From contig SIRX01000169.1 of NCBI GenBank assembly GCA_004563715.1, positions 1 through 52,611 of the forward strand: DNA of 52,611 nt, written 5' to 3'. A program made the position numbers and the translations under genes. The notes beneath the pieces were generated by a model that made no database searches, was not told the DNA's origin, and saw only the letters and a list, made by a program, of their open reading frames with translations. The DNA is from Actinomycetota bacterium. GTDB taxonomy: Bacteria; Actinomycetota; Rubrobacteria; Rubrobacterales; Rubrobacteraceae. Shown piece after piece: positions 4,858 to 49,110 of this stretch; the stretch's first letter is position 1, and each line of letters starts with the position of its first letter.

Positions 4858-4944
4858 CTTCTTCAGCCGGGACCCACGGGCGCTCTTTCTGTGTGCCGGA
4901 TTCCTTGTTAGCCGGTTGGCGGTATGGTAGTTTTGCATAGAGCA

Positions 4945-5113
4945 ACTTTCGGGGGCGGGTGAAATTCCCGCACCGGCGGTAGCCCGGGAAGCGTCAAGCG
5001 CTTTCTCGGGGAGCCCGCGAACCCCCGGCGACCTCCGGGGGCCGAGCCGGTGAAGGCCAGCGGTATCTGGCCGTAGTCCGGCGCCGACGGTTACAGTCCG
5101 GATGGGAGAAAGG
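4945..5113 (+). ncRNA. FMN riboswitch (RFN element) controlling ribD
   Basis: The 262-base gap before ribD holds the conserved blocks of the RFN aptamer: GGGGGCGGGTGAAATTCCCGCACCGGCGGTA (in part at 4951-4981), GAGCCCGCGAA, a variable arm, GCCGGTGAAGGCC-like and AGTCCGG segments, and the terminal GATGGGAGAAAGG. The closing helix P1 is visible: CTTTC at 4946-4950 pairs with GAAAG at 5108-5112. That 3' strand contains the AAAGGA ribosome-binding site of ribD (GTG at 5119). No terminator hairpin with a T run lies between aptamer and start. FMN binding should therefore stabilise P1 and hide the ribosome-binding site, giving translational repression. Confidence 0.93.
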
Positions 5114-5118
5114 AAGAC

Positions 5119-6243
5119 GTGGCACACAGGGACCTCATGGACCGCGCCCGCGACCTCGCGGAGCGCGGACGCTACACGGTAGCACCGAACCCCCTCGTGG
5201 GGGCCGTCGTTGTGCGTGATGGCGAGGTTTTGGGTGAGGGCTGGCACGCCCGGACGGGCCTGGACCATGCTGAAGTGTCCGCCCTCAAACAGGTCGGGAC
5301 CGGGGCGGCCGGGGCGACGATGTACGTGACGCTGGAGCCCTGCAACCACCACGGCCGCACGCCGCCGTGCACGGAAGCCATAATCCGGAGCGGCATCTCC
5401 CGCGTCGTGATCGGGCATCTCGATCCCGACCCGCGGATGCGCGGCCGGAGCGTCGAGTTGCTGCGCTCGGCCGGTATAGAGGTCGAGGTCCTCGACGACC
5501 CCGGCTTCGGGCGGCAGAACGAGCAGTTCTTCACGGCCATGCGTGAGGGGCGGCCCTTTGTCCACCTCAAGCTGGCGGCGACGTTGGACGGTAGGATCGC
5601 CGCCGCCAACGGCGACAGCCAGTGGGTTACCGGCGAGGCGGCCCGGCTCCGCGCCCGGATGCTGCGGGCCGAGGCCGGGGCGGTGCTCGTCGGGGCCGGA
5701 ACGGCCCGCGCCGACGATCCCCTCCTCACGGCCCGCGGCCTCCCCGAGGAGCCCCCCCGGATAACCCGCGCCGTCCTCGATCCCCGGCTCTCCCTCGGCC
5801 CGGAGAGCCAGCTCGCCCGCACCGCCCGCGAGAACCCGGTCGTGGCCTTTACCGGAAAGCTTGTGGACCGAAACCGGGCCCGGACGCTCGAAACGCTGGG
5901 GGTGGAGGTCGTGCCCGTGCCAGAAGCCGGTGACGGGCTGGACCTCGAAGCCGTGCTGCGGGAGCTCCAGCGGCGGGGTGTACGCGGGGTCCTCGTCGAG
6001 GGGGGCGGCGAGACCGCGGCGCGCTTCGTCAAAAAAGGGCTCGTAGACAAGCTCACCCTGTTCTACGCCCCGCGGCTGCTCGGCGCCGAGGGGATACCCA
6101 TGATCGGCAAGCTGCGTCTTACGCGCATGGCCCAGGCATCCGGGTTCGGGGTCGCCAACGTAGACTTGATCGACGGCGACCTCGCCGTAACGCTGTACCC
6201 CACACCGATAGCAGAGGAGGAACGTGTTCACCGGGCTGGTTGA
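5119..6243 (+). CDS. ribD: bifunctional riboflavin deaminase/reductase RibD
   Basis: Catalyses the second and third steps of riboflavin synthesis: deamination of the pyrimidine formed from GTP (EC 3.5.4.26) and reduction of its ribosyl chain (EC 1.1.1.193). The N-terminal cytidine-deaminase-like domain carries the zinc site His50-Ala-Glu52 with Cys75 and Cys84 in PCNHHGRTPPC. From about residue 148 the reductase domain starts (VHLKLAATLDGRIA, WVTGEAAR) and ends with the NADPH-binding VLVEGGGETAARF. At 374 residues it has the full two-domain length. The GTG start sits five bases after AAAGGA inside the FMN riboswitch. It overlaps ribE by 20 bases, indicating translational coupling. Confidence 0.96.
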   Translation: MAHRDLMDRARDLAERGRYTVAPNPLVGAVVVRDGEVLGEGWHARTGLDHAEVSALKQVGTGAAGATMYVTLEPCNHHGRTPPCTEAIIRSGISRVVIGHLDPDPRMRGRSVELLRSAGIEVEVLDDPGFGRQNEQFFTAMREGRPFVHLKLAATLDGRIAAANGDSQWVTGEAARLRARMLRAEAGAVLVGAGTARADDPLLTARGLPEEPPRITRAVLDPRLSLGPESQLARTARENPVVAFTGKLVDRNRARTLETLGVEVVPVPEAGDGLDLEAVLRELQRRGVRGVLVEGGGETAARFVKKGLVDKLTLFYAPRLLGAEGIPMIGKLRLTRMAQASGFGVANVDLIDGDLAVTLYPTPIAEEERVHRAG

Positions 6244-43702: not shown

Positions 43703-45157
43703 CTACCAGAGCAGCGGTCCCCCGTTTGCATCCCGGAGAAGGTAGTCGTCGTACATACGTTTGACCACCTCTGGATTCGATGGTGCTATATCGTTCGTTT
43801 GTCCCGGGTCTCTCTGCAGGTCGAAAAGCTTCGCTTCCTGGCCGTCGTTGCGGACTATCAGGGCGTAAAGCTCGTCGCGAGCCCAGGAGAAGTTCTGCTT
43901 GCCGGCTGTGGCATAAGGCCTGGGACCGGGTTCTTCGCCGTCGAATATCACCGAGAGGTCTTGTCCCTCTACCGGCTCCGGTGGCCGGGTCCCGAGAAAG
44001 CCGAACACCGTAGAGACGATGTCGTGGGTCGAGGCCGGGTACGTGCTGGTCTCTCCGCCTTTCTTGGCCTCCGGGTGCCGGATAAAGAACGGGATGTCTA
44101 CCACCTCGGGCCACAGTGCTTCGTGGGGCTTGCCCGTGGTGTCGTGCTCGCCCAGCAGAATGCCGTGGTCGCTGAGCGCTATCAGCACGGTGTTCTCCAT
44201 CAGGCCCAATTCGTTCATTTTGTCGAGGAAACGCCCTAGCCAATGATCTACCAGCGTCACTTCCCCCGCGTAGAGCGCCCGCATACGCTCTAGCTGCCGG
44301 TCGGTCAGGTAGTCGGTGGACCTGTAAGCGGGACAGAAAGGCTCAGGTCCTTCGTAGTCGTCGCTGTAGAGATCCACGTACTTCTGTGGCGGGTCCCAGG
44401 GCTCGTGAGGATCGAAGGAGTCCACAACCATGAAAAACGGCTCCCGGTTGACACAATCTTCTAGCATTTGGGTGGCGGTGTTAAACACCTGGGGCGCGAA
44501 GTAGTCTTCTTCGGTCTGGCGGTCCGCCGTGTTGGCCAGGTGGTGTCGCGTTCTGACTACCTCTACCGGCAGGTACCGGCGCATCGTTTCCTCGGAAACC
44601 GCCCAGTAGGGTTTGTAGCGGTCTGTCTCCTGACCTCGAACAAAGTAGAAAGTCTCGAAACCCTTGTGAAAGTTCATCTCGGGCTTGAACTGGTGGTAGG
44701 TGTCGGTGATGAGCAGGGTTTCGTACCCGATCTCGTCCAGCATCTGTGCCAGGGTTGTCTGCTCTTGGGGTATGGGTAGCCACCCGAACATCAGAGAGCC
44801 CTTGTTGACCTCGGGTTCGTAGTGGTTGAAGGGGAACGTTCTAAGGCCGGTGTGTATGGCACGCCGGGCCGGAAGGGTAGGAAGGGCTTCGGGGTACGCG
44901 CGGGTAAAGCGCAGGCTCTCGCGGGCGAGGGCGTCCAGGTTGGGGGTCTGGATCCAGCCGTTCCCGTAGGCTCCTACGTGATCTTTTCTCAAGCTATCTA
45001 GAATCACGAGCACCACGTTCAACCTGGTTTCTCCTTTCCGAGAGGAGTCGCAACCCGAAGCGGCTAGCATCGCTCCCAGCAGGGTTGCCCCGGCGGCCCC
45101 TTTCAGAAAGCTCTTGCGGGTGATCTTATGCGGAGCGTCGTCAGCCACGTGCGGCAT
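43703..45157 (-). CDS. sulfatase-like hydrolase, predicted exported lipoprotein with Thr at the nucleophile position
   Basis: A 484-residue member of the alkaline phosphatase/sulfatase superfamily. The N-terminus TRKSFLKGAAGATLLGAM resembles a twin-arginine-like signal and ends in a lipobox LAASGC (Cys36), so the protein is probably anchored outside the membrane. Metal-site motifs are VILDSLRKDHVGAYGN (Asp54) and ALSDHGILLGEH. The nucleophile motif (C/S)-x-P-x-R reads TLPAR, with Thr94, so formylglycine cannot form. It may be a phosphodiesterase or phosphotransferase rather than a sulfatase. It is the only minus-strand gene within a 36-kb plus-strand run and splits ispG from rimP, suggesting insertion or transfer. 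Confidence 0.85.
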   Translation of the reverse strand: MPHVADDAPHKITRKSFLKGAAGATLLGAMLAASGCDSSRKGETRLNVVLVILDSLRKDHVGAYGNGWIQTPNLDALARESLRFTRAYPEALPTLPARRAIHTGLRTFPFNHYEPEVNKGSLMFGWLPIPQEQTTLAQMLDEIGYETLLITDTYHQFKPEMNFHKGFETFYFVRGQETDRYKPYWAVSEETMRRYLPVEVVRTRHHLANTADRQTEEDYFAPQVFNTATQMLEDCVNREPFFMVVDSFDPHEPWDPPQKYVDLYSDDYEGPEPFCPAYRSTDYLTDRQLERMRALYAGEVTLVDHWLGRFLDKMNELGLMENTVLIALSDHGILLGEHDTTGKPHEALWPEVVDIPFFIRHPEAKKGGETSTYPASTHDIVSTVFGFLGTRPPEPVEGQDLSVIFDGEEPGPRPYATAGKQNFSWARDELYALIVRNDGQEAKLFDLQRDPGQTNDIAPSNPEVVKRMYDDYLLRDANGGPLLW

Positions 45158-45266
45158 GATAGCCTAGTTTACGCGGAGGTTTCTGCCCGCCATACCGGCG
45201 GAGTACCAGCGACGTTCGGAGGTTCTTCGGCGACGCCTGTCCGCTGGCCGGCCGGCTCCCTTAGCC

Positions 45267-45294
45267 TTGTAACCTAGATACTCTGCTGTATAAT
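45267..45294 (+). promoter_or_regulatory. strong promoter for rimP-nusA-infB
   Basis: TTGTAA (45267-45272) and a perfect TATAAT (45289-45294) are 16 bases apart, the best match to the housekeeping consensus in the window. Transcription would start near 45301, giving a leader of about 68 bases that contains a terminator-like hairpin. Confidence 0.75.
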
Positions 45295-45310
45295 CGAGCG
45301 TGGTGTGTCG

Positions 45311-45344
45311 GAGCAAGGGGTCCCACCGGACTCGTTGCTTTTTT
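45311..45344 (+). terminator. terminator-like hairpin (possible attenuator) in the rimP-nusA leader
   Basis: AGCAA (45312-45316) pairs with TTGCT (45335-45339); after one G-G mismatch the stem continues G18-C33, G19-T32 wobble, and GTCC (45320-45323) with GGAC (45328-45331), closed by a CACC loop. Six T residues (45339-45344) follow. It lies between the promoter and the ribosome-binding site at 45355-45363, so full transcripts must read through it. Confidence 0.6.
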
Positions 45345-45368
45345 AACGTCCAAAAGAGGTGATCGCCG

Positions 45369-45809
45369 ACGGCACGGCTGGAGAAACTAACGCAGGTTGT
45401 GGAGAGAAACCTCCCGGCGGGGAGCGAGCTGGTAGAGGCCCGCTTCTCCGGCGGGCCGCTGCTCACCCTGCTCGTGGACCGGGTAGACGGGCCTGTGGAC
45501 CACGAATTTTGCTCCCGGGTCATCTCCGTGATTTCGCCGGCTCTCGAAGAGGAGGGCTACGACGGCATGGTCGAGATCTCCTCGCCGGGCATAGAGCGCC
45601 CGCTGACGAGGCCCGAGCACTTCCGGCGTTTCGTCGGCCACGAGGCGAAGGTTCGCACAGCAGAGCCGGTTGACGGGCGACGCAACTTCACCGGCGCCAT
45701 AAAGAGCGCCGGGGACGACGGTTTCACCCTACAACTCTTAGAGGGGGGAGCGGAGGTGGAGCTGCCGTTCGGCTCCGTCTCGCGCGCGTACCTCAAGGAG
45801 GAAATATAG
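45369..45809 (+). CDS. rimP: ribosome maturation factor RimP, probably starting at ACG
   Basis: Needed for 30S assembly. The protein shows the family segments GSELVEARFSGGPLLTLLVD, HEFCSRVISVISPALEEEGY, VEISSPGIERPLTRPEHF and ELPFGSVSRAYL. The only canonical start near the N-terminus, GTG 45399, would cut off half the first helix and has a poor ribosome-binding site. The frame is open upstream only to the TGA at 45360. A strong AGAGGTGAT at 45355-45363 points at ACG 45369, which gives TARLEKLTQVVERNLPAG, matching the usual RimP N-terminal helix (146 residues). CTG 45378 is an alternative. First gene of the rimP-nusA-infB operon. Confidence 0.85.
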   Translation, partial: TARLEKLTQVVERNLPAGSELVEARFSGGPLLTLLVDRVDGPVDHEFCSRVISVISPALEEEGYDGMVEISSPGIERPLTRPEHFRRFVGHEAKVRTAEPVDGRRNFTGAIKSAGDDGFTLQLLEGGAEVELPFGSVSRAYLKEEI

Positions 45810-45812
45810 AAG

Positions 45813-46946
45813 ATGAATACAGCACTGCTCTCAGCGTTGCACGAGATAGAGATCGACAAGGGAATACCGTTCGAGACGGTCAAGGGGGTGTTGGAAGAGT
45901 CCTTGCTCGCCGCTTACGAAGGCCGGGAGGAGGCTGAAGAAGGGGCCGAAGTAATCCTCGACCGGGAGACCGGAGACCTCCGGGTGATGAAGGACGGCGA
46001 GGACATAACGCCGGCGGACTTCACCCGCATCGCGGCGCAGGTCATGCGCCAGACGTTCTACCAGCGCCTGAACGAGATCCACAACGACCAGCTGCTGGAG
46101 GAGTACGGTGAGCGGCTGGGAGACGTCGTCACCGGCATCGTCCAGCAGGCCCACCGGCGCATGACGCTGGTGGACCTCGGTAGAGTCGAGGCCATCCTGC
46201 CGGCCAGCGAGCAGGTCCCCAACGAACGCTACGAGAACGGGCAGCGGATCAAGGTGTACCTCCTGGAGATCCGGGAGCCCGGCCGTGGTCCGAGCCTGGT
46301 GGTGAGCCGCCGGCACGACGGCCTCCTGAAGGGGCTCTTCGAGCTGGAGGTGCCGGAGATTTACGACAACCTCGTGGAGATAAAGGCCGTCTCCCGGGAG
46401 GCGGGCCTGCGCTCGAAGGTGGCCGTCTGGTCCAACGAGACGGGGATCGACCCGGTCGGGGCGTGCGTCGGGCCGCGGGGCAGCCGCGTGCGGGCCGTAG
46501 TCTCCGAGCTCCGGAACGAGAAGATTGACATAATCCAGTGGGACCCCGACCCGGCCCGGTTTATCGCCAAGGCGCTCTCGCCGGCCCGGGTGCGCGAGGT
46601 CTACCTGGACGAGGACGAGAAGATGGCCGAGGTCATAGTGCCCGACGACCAGCTCTCGCTCGCCATCGGCCGGGAGGGCCAGAACGCCCGCCTCGCCGTG
46701 AAGCTGACCGACTGGAAGATAGACATCAAGCCCGAGAGCCAGGCTATCGAGTACGAGGAAGAAGAGGAGTGGGAGCCGGACGACGACTCCACCATGCACC
46801 GTTGCCGGGCGGTTCTCAGCAACGGCCGCCGGTGCGCGAACATGGCGCTGCCGGGCTCTCTTTTCTGCGGTATACCCTCGCACCAGGCCCAGGCGGCCGA
46901 GTTCGAGGGCCTGGTTGAGGGCTCGCAGGGGGTATCAGATGAGTAA
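45813..46946 (+). CDS. nusA: transcription factor NusA with a C-terminal Cys/His zinc-finger-like motif
   Basis: Regulates pausing, termination and antitermination. The 377 residues contain the polymerase-binding N-terminal domain (about 1-125), an S1 domain (GDVVTGIVQQAHRRMTLVDLG), KH1 (GACVGPRGSRVRAVV) and KH2 (SLAIGREGQNARLAVKL). After an acidic linker there is an extra motif, HRCRAVLSNGRRCANMALP continuing to FCGIPSH, with Cys331, Cys341, Cys352 and His357 (C-x9-C-x10-C-x4-H). This resembles a small finger found in unrelated proteins. YlxR, which usually follows nusA, is absent. Overlaps infB by eight bases. Confidence 0.94.
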   Translation: MNTALLSALHEIEIDKGIPFETVKGVLEESLLAAYEGREEAEEGAEVILDRETGDLRVMKDGEDITPADFTRIAAQVMRQTFYQRLNEIHNDQLLEEYGERLGDVVTGIVQQAHRRMTLVDLGRVEAILPASEQVPNERYENGQRIKVYLLEIREPGRGPSLVVSRRHDGLLKGLFELEVPEIYDNLVEIKAVSREAGLRSKVAVWSNETGIDPVGACVGPRGSRVRAVVSELRNEKIDIIQWDPDPARFIAKALSPARVREVYLDEDEKMAEVIVPDDQLSLAIGREGQNARLAVKLTDWKIDIKPESQAIEYEEEEEWEPDDDSTMHRCRAVLSNGRRCANMALPGSLFCGIPSHQAQAAEFEGLVEGSQGVSDE

Positions 46947-49110
46947 GCGCGTATACGAGATAGCGAAGGAACTGGACCTCGGCACCAAGGAGGTCATGGG
47001 CCGCCTGAGCGCGGCCGGGGTCGAGGTGAAGAACCACTTCGCCGTTATCGAGGACCCGGTCTACGAGCGGGTCTTCGGCGGCAACGGCCAGGCTACGGCT
47101 GGAAACGGCCGGACGGAAGCCCAGGAGGCCGAGGCCCGGGAGGCCCGGGTGGAGGCCGAGAGATCCGGGCACGGCGCGAACATCGCGGGGGCTCCGGCCG
47201 AGGAGCCCGTCTCCACCGGAGGTCGGGGCGGCAAGAAAAAGGGCGGGAAGAAGCGGCGGCGGGTCGTTATCGACGCGAGCGCCACGAACCGGGGGCCGCG
47301 CCCGAGCCCCGCGCCCGCCCAGCCGAAGCAGCCGCAGCGGGCCCCCGAGCCGGCGGCCGAGGAAGAGCAGCCGGATGTCGTCAGGGTCGAGCCGGGGGCC
47401 ACGGTCAAGGACCTGGCCGACGCGGTCGGCATCCCGCCCACGCGGGTCATAAAAGAGCTCATGGGCCTCGGGGAGATGAAGACCGTCACCCAGACGCTCT
47501 CCATCGAGGAGATCGAGCTCGTCTCCGAGGCGCTCGGGGTCACGGTGCAGGTCGCGGCGGTCGAGGAGCCCGCCGTGGAAGAAGTCCTGCCGGAAGACGC
47601 CCCGGAGGATCTGGTCGAGAAGCCGCCGGTGGTTACGGTGATGGGCCACGTGGACCACGGCAAGACGTCGCTCCTGGACTACATCCGCAAGGAGAACGTC
47701 CAGTCCGGGGAGGCCGGGGGGATAACCCAGCACATCGGCGCCTACCAGGTGGAGAGCGACGGCCGGAGCATCACGTTCGTGGACACGCCGGGCCACGAGG
47801 CGTTTACCGAGATGCGGGCCCGCGGCGCGAAGGTCACGGACGTGGTGGTGCTGGTCGTGGCCGCCGACGACGGCATCATGCCCCAGACCGAGGAGGCCAT
47901 CGAGCACTCCCGGGCCGCTGGCGTGCCGCTGGTGGTGGCGCTGAACAAGATCGATGTGCCCAACGCCAACCCCGACCGGGTGCTGGGCCAGCTCTCGGAG
48001 CGCGGCCTGATCCCCGAGATGTACGGCGGCGATACGGTTACCGTGCCGGTCTCGGCCAAGACCGGGGAAGGCATCGACGAGCTGCTGGAGAACATCCTGG
48101 TCGTCGCCGAGCTGGAGGAGTTGCGGGCCAACCCCAACGCCCCGGCGAGCGGGTACGTTATAGAGGGCGAGCGCGACCCAGGCCGCGGCCCGGTGGCGAC
48201 GCTGCTCCTGAGCCGCGGCACGCTCCACAAGGGCGACGTGGTGCTCGCGGGCACGGCCTACGGACGGGTGCGGGCCATGCTCGACTACACCGGCCAGCGC
48301 GTGCAGAGCGCGGGGCCGGGAGACCCGGTGGAGATCCTGGGCCTCTCTGGCGTGCCGGAGGCCGGTACCCGCTTCGAGGTCGTTGAGCACGAGCGGCAGG
48401 CGCGGGACAAGGCCCAGCAGGCCGAGGCGGCGCTGCGGCGCCAGGAACTCGCGGAGGGCGGCACCCGCCGGACGCTGGAAGAGTTGCTCGGCGCGGGCGG
48501 TGTGCAGGACCTGAACCTGGTCATCAAGGCGGACGTGGCCGGTTCGGTCGAGGCGCTCAAGGAGGCGCTCGCCAAGCTCTCCACCGAGGAGGTGCGGGTC
48601 AACATCGTGCGCAGCGGGGTCGGGGCCATCACGGACTCCGACGTCATGCTCGGCTCGGCCTCGGGCGGCATCGTGCTCGGCTTCAACGTGCGGCCGACCA
48701 ACACGGCCAAGCAGGTCGCCGAGCGGGAGGGCGTGGAGATCCGGACCTACGACGTGATCTACAAGGCCCTCGAAGAGATCGAGGCCGCCATGCGCGGCAT
48801 GCTCGCCCCCGAGCAGGAGGAGCGCGAGACGGGCACCGCCGAGGTCCGCCAGACGTTCCGCGTCCCGAACGTCGGCCTGGTGGCCGGCTGCTACGTTACG
48901 ACCGGCGAGATCTCGCGCAACGACCGGGTCCGTGTGGTGCGCGACGGCGTCGTCGTTTACGAGGGCAACCTGGCCTCCTTGAAGCGCTTTAAGGACGACG
49001 TGCGCTCGGTGCGTCAGGGCTTTGAGTGCGGCATTGGCATCGAGAGCTTCAACGACGTCAAGGAAGGCGACGTGCTGGAGTTCTTCGAGGTCGTGGAGAT
49101 CCCGCGGTAA
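46939..49110 (+). CDS. infB: translation initiation factor IF-2
   Basis: GTPase that places initiator tRNA on the ribosome. The 723-residue protein has an N-terminal IF2N domain (KRVYEIAKELDLGTKEVMGRL), a linker of about 110 residues rich in Ala, Glu, Pro, Gly and basic residues, a second IF2N domain, then the G domain with GHVDHGKT (236-243), DTPGHEAF and NKID, and domains II-IV. The ATG at 46939 overlaps the nusA stop and gives the family N-terminus. It may bear on the relaxed start-codon use seen here. Confidence 0.96.
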   Translation: MSKRVYEIAKELDLGTKEVMGRLSAAGVEVKNHFAVIEDPVYERVFGGNGQATAGNGRTEAQEAEAREARVEAERSGHGANIAGAPAEEPVSTGGRGGKKKGGKKRRRVVIDASATNRGPRPSPAPAQPKQPQRAPEPAAEEEQPDVVRVEPGATVKDLADAVGIPPTRVIKELMGLGEMKTVTQTLSIEEIELVSEALGVTVQVAAVEEPAVEEVLPEDAPEDLVEKPPVVTVMGHVDHGKTSLLDYIRKENVQSGEAGGITQHIGAYQVESDGRSITFVDTPGHEAFTEMRARGAKVTDVVVLVVAADDGIMPQTEEAIEHSRAAGVPLVVALNKIDVPNANPDRVLGQLSERGLIPEMYGGDTVTVPVSAKTGEGIDELLENILVVAELEELRANPNAPASGYVIEGERDPGRGPVATLLLSRGTLHKGDVVLAGTAYGRVRAMLDYTGQRVQSAGPGDPVEILGLSGVPEAGTRFEVVEHERQARDKAQQAEAALRRQELAEGGTRRTLEELLGAGGVQDLNLVIKADVAGSVEALKEALAKLSTEEVRVNIVRSGVGAITDSDVMLGSASGGIVLGFNVRPTNTAKQVAEREGVEIRTYDVIYKALEEIEAAMRGMLAPEQEERETGTAEVRQTFRVPNVGLVAGCYVTTGEISRNDRVRVVRDGVVVYEGNLASLKRFKDDVRSVRQGFECGIGIESFNDVKEGDVLEFFEVVEIPR

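Follow-up and report, generated by a model that had tools for sequence, protein, structure and literature searches.

A putative rimP-leader attenuator and an apparent ACG start codon at the head of the rimP-nusA-infB operon in Rubrobacteraceae

In Rubrobacteraceae, the rimP-nusA-infB operon is preceded by a short leader, composed of a conserved promoter, a hairpin and a run of T residues, which very likely functions as a transcription attenuator. A first-pass annotation of one such stretch of DNA had proposed an attenuator at this position, and the proposal is strongly supported by the anatomy of the leader and by its conservation in all relatives. Judging from the sequences, we favour as the probable reading that this rimP-leader is an attenuator with NusA as its most likely effector, and that an ACG codon at the start of rimP is likely to form a second, translational gate. 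What surprises most in this system is the ACG start; neither it nor the conservation of the promoter spacer had been recognised in the first-pass annotation.

Sequences compared

The window, i.e. the whole stretch of DNA analysed, comprises 52,611 nucleotides and is a contig from a member of the Rubrobacteraceae (Actinomycetota). The relatives with a NusA that is 82-91% identical belong to Rubrobacter and Rubrobacteraceae. The leader set consisted of 37 distinct rimP leaders of Rubrobacteraceae, of which L015 and L016 are nearly identical, and was assembled from NusA matches in relatives, named contigs and five further regions.

Organisation of the locus

The following genes surround the leader in the window:

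dxr, rseP and ispG, + strand: in this order ahead of the sulfatase gene, identified by reading translations
43703-45157, - strand: divergent sulfatase gene between ispG and rimP
45369..45809, + strand: rimP, with DUF150_C above cut-off and RimP_N slightly below cut-off
45813..46946, + strand: nusA, with NusA_N, S1 and KH domains
46915..49110, + strand: infB (IF2), of which the start coordinate is provisional

In three leaders (L015-L017), the rimP promoter comes directly after the apparent rseP stop codon. The C-terminal tail of NusA (46800-46946) carries a Cys/His-rich motif, HRCRAVLSNGRRCANMALPGSLFCGIPSH, with a weak, sub-cut-off likeness to a CCCH zinc finger in Pfam. Elsewhere in the window, an ordinary FMN riboswitch (4941-5117; Rfam RF00050, 72.7 bits) precedes a ribD-like gene at 5119.

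Anatomy of the leader

Between the sulfatase gene and rimP, the leader contains the following elements:

45265..45294, + strand: promoter of rimP-nusA-infB, CC-TTGTAA-CCTAGATACTCTGCTG-TATAAT, showing family-wide conservation of the hexamers and of the greater part of the 16-nt spacer
45301, + strand: predicted transcription start, about 7 nt past the -10 box, placed from the promoter position
45310..45341, + strand: putative terminator/attenuator hairpin, with an invariant outer stem AGCAA/UUGCU, a covarying inner stem and a variable loop (CACC)
45339..45344, + strand: T6 tract, present as T6 in 17 species and as T7 in 20
45352..45364, + strand: extended Shine-Dalgarno sequence AAAAGAGGTGATC
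45369..45371, + strand: ACG, proposed start codon of rimP, with an in-frame TGA at 45360 and hence no usable ATG, GTG or TTG further upstream in that frame

The near-consensus promoter that had been described at this place, TTGTAA-16-TATAAT, is exact: TTGTAA starts at 45267, is followed by 16 nt, and TATAAT ends at 45294, the two hexamers matching the consensus at 10/12 positions. A promoter scan returned 3 such sites in 8.6 kb where 0.5 were expected, and TATAAT occurs only once in the 52.6 kb window when both strands are counted. The hairpin reads GGAGCAA-G-GGGUCC-[CACC]-GGACUC-G-UUGCUUU and contains 13 pairs in the window, against 12 in the consensus of the family. A single G.G mismatch (45317/45334) breaks the stem, so that the 12-step stem with a CACC loop reported earlier is about right once this mismatch is allowed. 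The six T residues said to follow the stem lie at 45339-45344, and the ribosome-binding site placed between them and the first gene corresponds to the extended Shine-Dalgarno sequence, which agrees with the extended consensus at 12/13 bases. The minimum free energy of the hairpin is -18.8 kcal/mol (z = -2.5), a value equalled by 1/200 shuffles. Since a terminator scan alone stays at chance level (4 found versus 4.5 expected), the evidence from this single sequence is moderate; it is the conservation at rimP in 37/37 species, together with the pairing and the compensatory changes, that raises the hairpin above chance.

Conservation of hairpin and promoter across the family

The hairpin and its T6-T7 tract are found at rimP in 37/37 Rubrobacteraceae species examined. 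Covariation of the stem in relatives had been named beforehand as a way to check the attenuator, and the inner stem indeed carries compensatory changes. In the alignment of leaders, AGCAAGG and CGTTGCTTTTTT are invariant, and with them the outer stem and the G.G mismatch. At the 12 pairs of the consensus, 99.8% of alignment cells are paired, compared to 36-62% in slid controls. Changes on both sides of a pair were counted in 7 cells, a number reached by 0/500 shuffles. Only 2 pairs show such double changes; taken by itself, this second measure does not exceed the shuffles (143/500), since the majority of pairs in the hairpin are invariable.

The hairpin pattern occurs in one copy per genome in 22/23 family genomes searched, the exception being a genome that is 60% complete, and when 297 Actinomycetota genomes were searched with a covariance model, all matches to the element fell within Rubrobacteraceae. 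Likewise, the promoter motif (at most 3 mismatches in 20) is present once per genome, and the search for copies of hairpin or promoter away from rimP, as expected for a regulon, yielded only one weak off-target promoter match in G003.

The TTGTAA box is present in every leader for which upstream DNA is available, L026 ending at a contig edge, and the DNA 5' of this -35 box is poorly conserved. In correctly parsed rows, the distance from the -10 box to the hairpin is 14-16 nt; this excludes four rows (L007 and L015-L017) in which the marker was displaced by an unusual overlap, although the sequence shows the same block. Promoter spacers usually drift. Here, conservation reaches 77-100% in most columns of the 16-nt spacer CCTACATACTCTG, and positions 45273-45285 are nearly as conserved as the hexamers. 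A protein that reads the spacer is possible.

The T tract also bears on another explanation of the hairpin, namely that it is unregulated and either terminates constitutively and in part, lowering operon expression, or stabilises the transcript by shielding the mRNA end. Only about 9 nt separate the stem from the predicted 5' end, as in stabilising 5' stem-loops, and a competing antiterminator structure was not seen, the window leader offering no alternative fold in its minimum-energy structure. A stability hairpin, however, would not need the T6-T7 tract that is kept in 37/37 species, and we regard this explanation as improbable. By inspection only, a conserved GYTGT box ahead of the stem has no consistent partner; its pairing with GCAA as an antiterminator was considered and dropped, as it fails where the box is GCTGT. 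A boxA reading of TTGCTTTTTTAACG was likewise set aside, being a loose likeness by eye for which no clear counterpart was noticed in the 16S leader. The short open frame over the hairpin in the window does not represent a conserved leader peptide, since frame and stops vary among species.

The attenuator reading is further sharpened by the spacing downstream. In 31/37 species, the distance from T-run to start codon is only 28-33 nt, T-run and Shine-Dalgarno sequence included, which in most species leaves no room for a second promoter after the hairpin. Transcription entering from upstream must therefore cross the terminator and, as the operon must be expressed, regulated or at least partial read-through is needed for rimP. 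As in E. coli, where internal promoters inside rimP serve nusA and infB (PMC6511841), such promoters may exist here as well. Promoter, hairpin, U-tract, conservation and compensatory changes can be read from the sequences directly, and it is from these that we infer the start site and actual termination.

Relation to known rimP-leaders

A rimP-leader with a GGGc...gCCC terminator was described by Naville and Gautheret (2010, PMC2965389). Like that element, the leader of Rubrobacteraceae is placed in the 5' UTR of rimP-nusA-infB near the Shine-Dalgarno sequence and has a U-stretch directly after the stem (T6 or T7, 37/37). A G-rich 5' arm and a C-rich 3' arm, with a GGG...CCC core kept in most leaders, and the apparent lack of an antiterminator, judged from the fold of the window leader, may be further points of likeness. 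In contrast, its flanks are AGCAA-G / G-UUGCU with the invariant G.G mismatch instead of AGUG/CACU, and it measures about 45 nt with a promoter fixed 14-16 nt before the stem, compared to 180 nt in B. subtilis. The core is mostly GGG...CCC (GGGGTC...GACCC), in some leaders GGG...CTC and in one GAG...CTC.

The usual form, AGTGGGC...GCCCACTTTTTT, recurs as a folding element before rimP in Alphaproteobacteria, some Firmicutes, Marinimicrobia and some Actinomycetota. Within the Actinomycetota, AGTGGGC...GCCCACTTTT precedes rimP in members other than Rubrobacteraceae, whose leaders lack GTGGGC...GCCCAC in its exact form. A strict pattern of the usual form was present in 40/294 Actinomycetota genomes, and 28/30 checked places adjoin rimP and/or nusA. 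The Rfam model RF01770 (rimP), which covers the same gene context and idea and has a membership threshold of 47 bits, matched neither the leader nor the genome at the gathering score or at E <= 10.

Because the GGG...CCC core is mostly kept and the flanks are its own, we call the Rubrobacteraceae element a lineage-specific, divergent variant of the known rimP-leader; the idea of such an attenuator has precedents in other bacteria. From position and core we infer common ancestry with the general rimP-leader. The rimP-leader is thereby extended to an actinobacterial family in a form missed by the Rfam model, which opens the element to study of what the effector really reads.

NusA and other candidate effectors

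NusA feedback on the operon, as suggested in the first-pass annotation, is likely by analogy, and is plausible because it has been reported for both B. subtilis and E. coli. In B. subtilis, NusA is reported to stimulate termination in the leader of the operon that encodes it (PMC12288461, citing Mondal 2016), and in E. coli the operon is likewise regulated by its product NusA (PMC6511841). The Rubrobacteraceae leader shares with that B. subtilis leader an intrinsic terminator ahead of the nusA operon, but is much shorter. NusA has moreover been proposed as the reader of rimP-leaders generally (PMC2965389), and it may help suboptimal hairpins to form (PMC8060035), a role that the invariant G.G mismatch would fit.

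Under such feedback, RNA polymerase would start about 9 nt ahead of the hairpin. Having transcribed the leader, some 45 nt in length, it would either stop at the U-tract or continue into rimP-nusA-infB. Plentiful free NusA would aid the suboptimal, G.G-interrupted hairpin or prolong a pause, resulting in more termination, while scarce NusA would result in more read-through. The hairpin with its T6-7 tract may also suffice for termination without any factor, and neither an antiterminator nor a ligand site that would account for release was found.

Alternatively, the leader could be an attenuator in which read-through is set by RimP, NusG or an RNA-binding protein recognising the invariant AGCAAG-GGG...CCC-GUUGCU. 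The outer stem and the G.G mismatch are invariant in sequence beyond structural need, which suggests recognition by something, and the protein that reads the outer stem could be one different from NusA. In B. subtilis, intrinsic termination also involves NusG as a factor (PMC8060035), and RimP has been raised as a possible effector (PMC2965389). Nevertheless, NusA is the effector documented for the operon in two model bacteria that are only distantly related (PMC6511841, PMC12288461), and we consider a different effector rather unlikely, though less so than an unregulated hairpin.

The ACG start codon of rimP and the GTA start codon of infC

From the sequence, ACG appears to be the start codon of rimP in each of the 37 species. 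The rimP frame of the window runs from the TGA at 45360 through TCG CCG ACG, and the next ATG, GTG or TTG is the GTG at 45399, use of which would cost ten residues of the conserved N-terminus. ACG occupies the start position in 37/37 species, one codon further upstream in L021 and L022, with the Shine-Dalgarno sequence 6-10 nt ahead of it in 37/37 (mode 8).

It is very improbable that this ACG is an ordinary Thr codon and that RimP is translated from a GTG or TTG elsewhere. An in-frame GTG or TTG does lie 6-12 nt upstream in most species, yet it overlaps or abuts the Shine-Dalgarno sequence (AAGGTGA, GGAGGTTTG), and in the window, L007, L005, L029, L010, L030 and L004 there is no ATG, GTG or TTG from the upstream in-frame stop to ACG. 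Moreover, the other near-invariant Thr columns of rimP mix ACG and ACC, two of them having ACG in 28/37 and 18/37 species, and elsewhere in the 37 rimP genes Thr is encoded by ACG 100, ACC 94, ACA 14 and ACT 9 times (46% ACG). As the species are related, no simple probability can be attached to ACG in 37/37; the contrast with the other Thr columns is clear.

Repression of non-canonical starts by IF3, including those of infC and the GTC of Streptomyces sigR, has been reported (PMC5472188). The rimP start resembles the AUU/AUC of infC and the GTC of sigR in being a conserved non-canonical start with a strong Shine-Dalgarno sequence, here in an Actinomycetota gene, and differs from them in the codon, ACG having a second-position mismatch, and in the gene concerned. 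By this analogy, a translation-fidelity gate of IF3 on rimP is a well-grounded hypothesis, in which the ACG start should tie RimP synthesis to initiation stringency. The complete picture, in which the head of the operon is gated twice, by an attenuator that is specific to the lineage and responds to NusA and by an obligatory ACG that ties a 30S maturation factor to IF3/IF2 levels, is put forward tentatively, as a possibility that we hold to be somewhat short of even. A literature search of incomplete coverage returned no description of a family-wide conserved bacterial ACG start and nothing relevant on Rubrobacter with an ACG start codon.

A second non-canonical start in the same family concerns infC, which apparently starts at GTA (GUA) in 10/10 Rubrobacteraceae (L161, L162, L164, L167-L173), and thus differs from the AUU/AUC starts. 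Together, rimP ACG and infC GTA point to a lineage in which ribosome assembly and initiation factors may be controlled through start-codon stringency, and gene callers limited to ATG, GTG and TTG would be expected to misplace both starts. The GTA of infC is shortly preceded by a conserved AGGAGTG, and in 9/10 species no ATG, GTG or TTG lies between the upstream stop and GTA.
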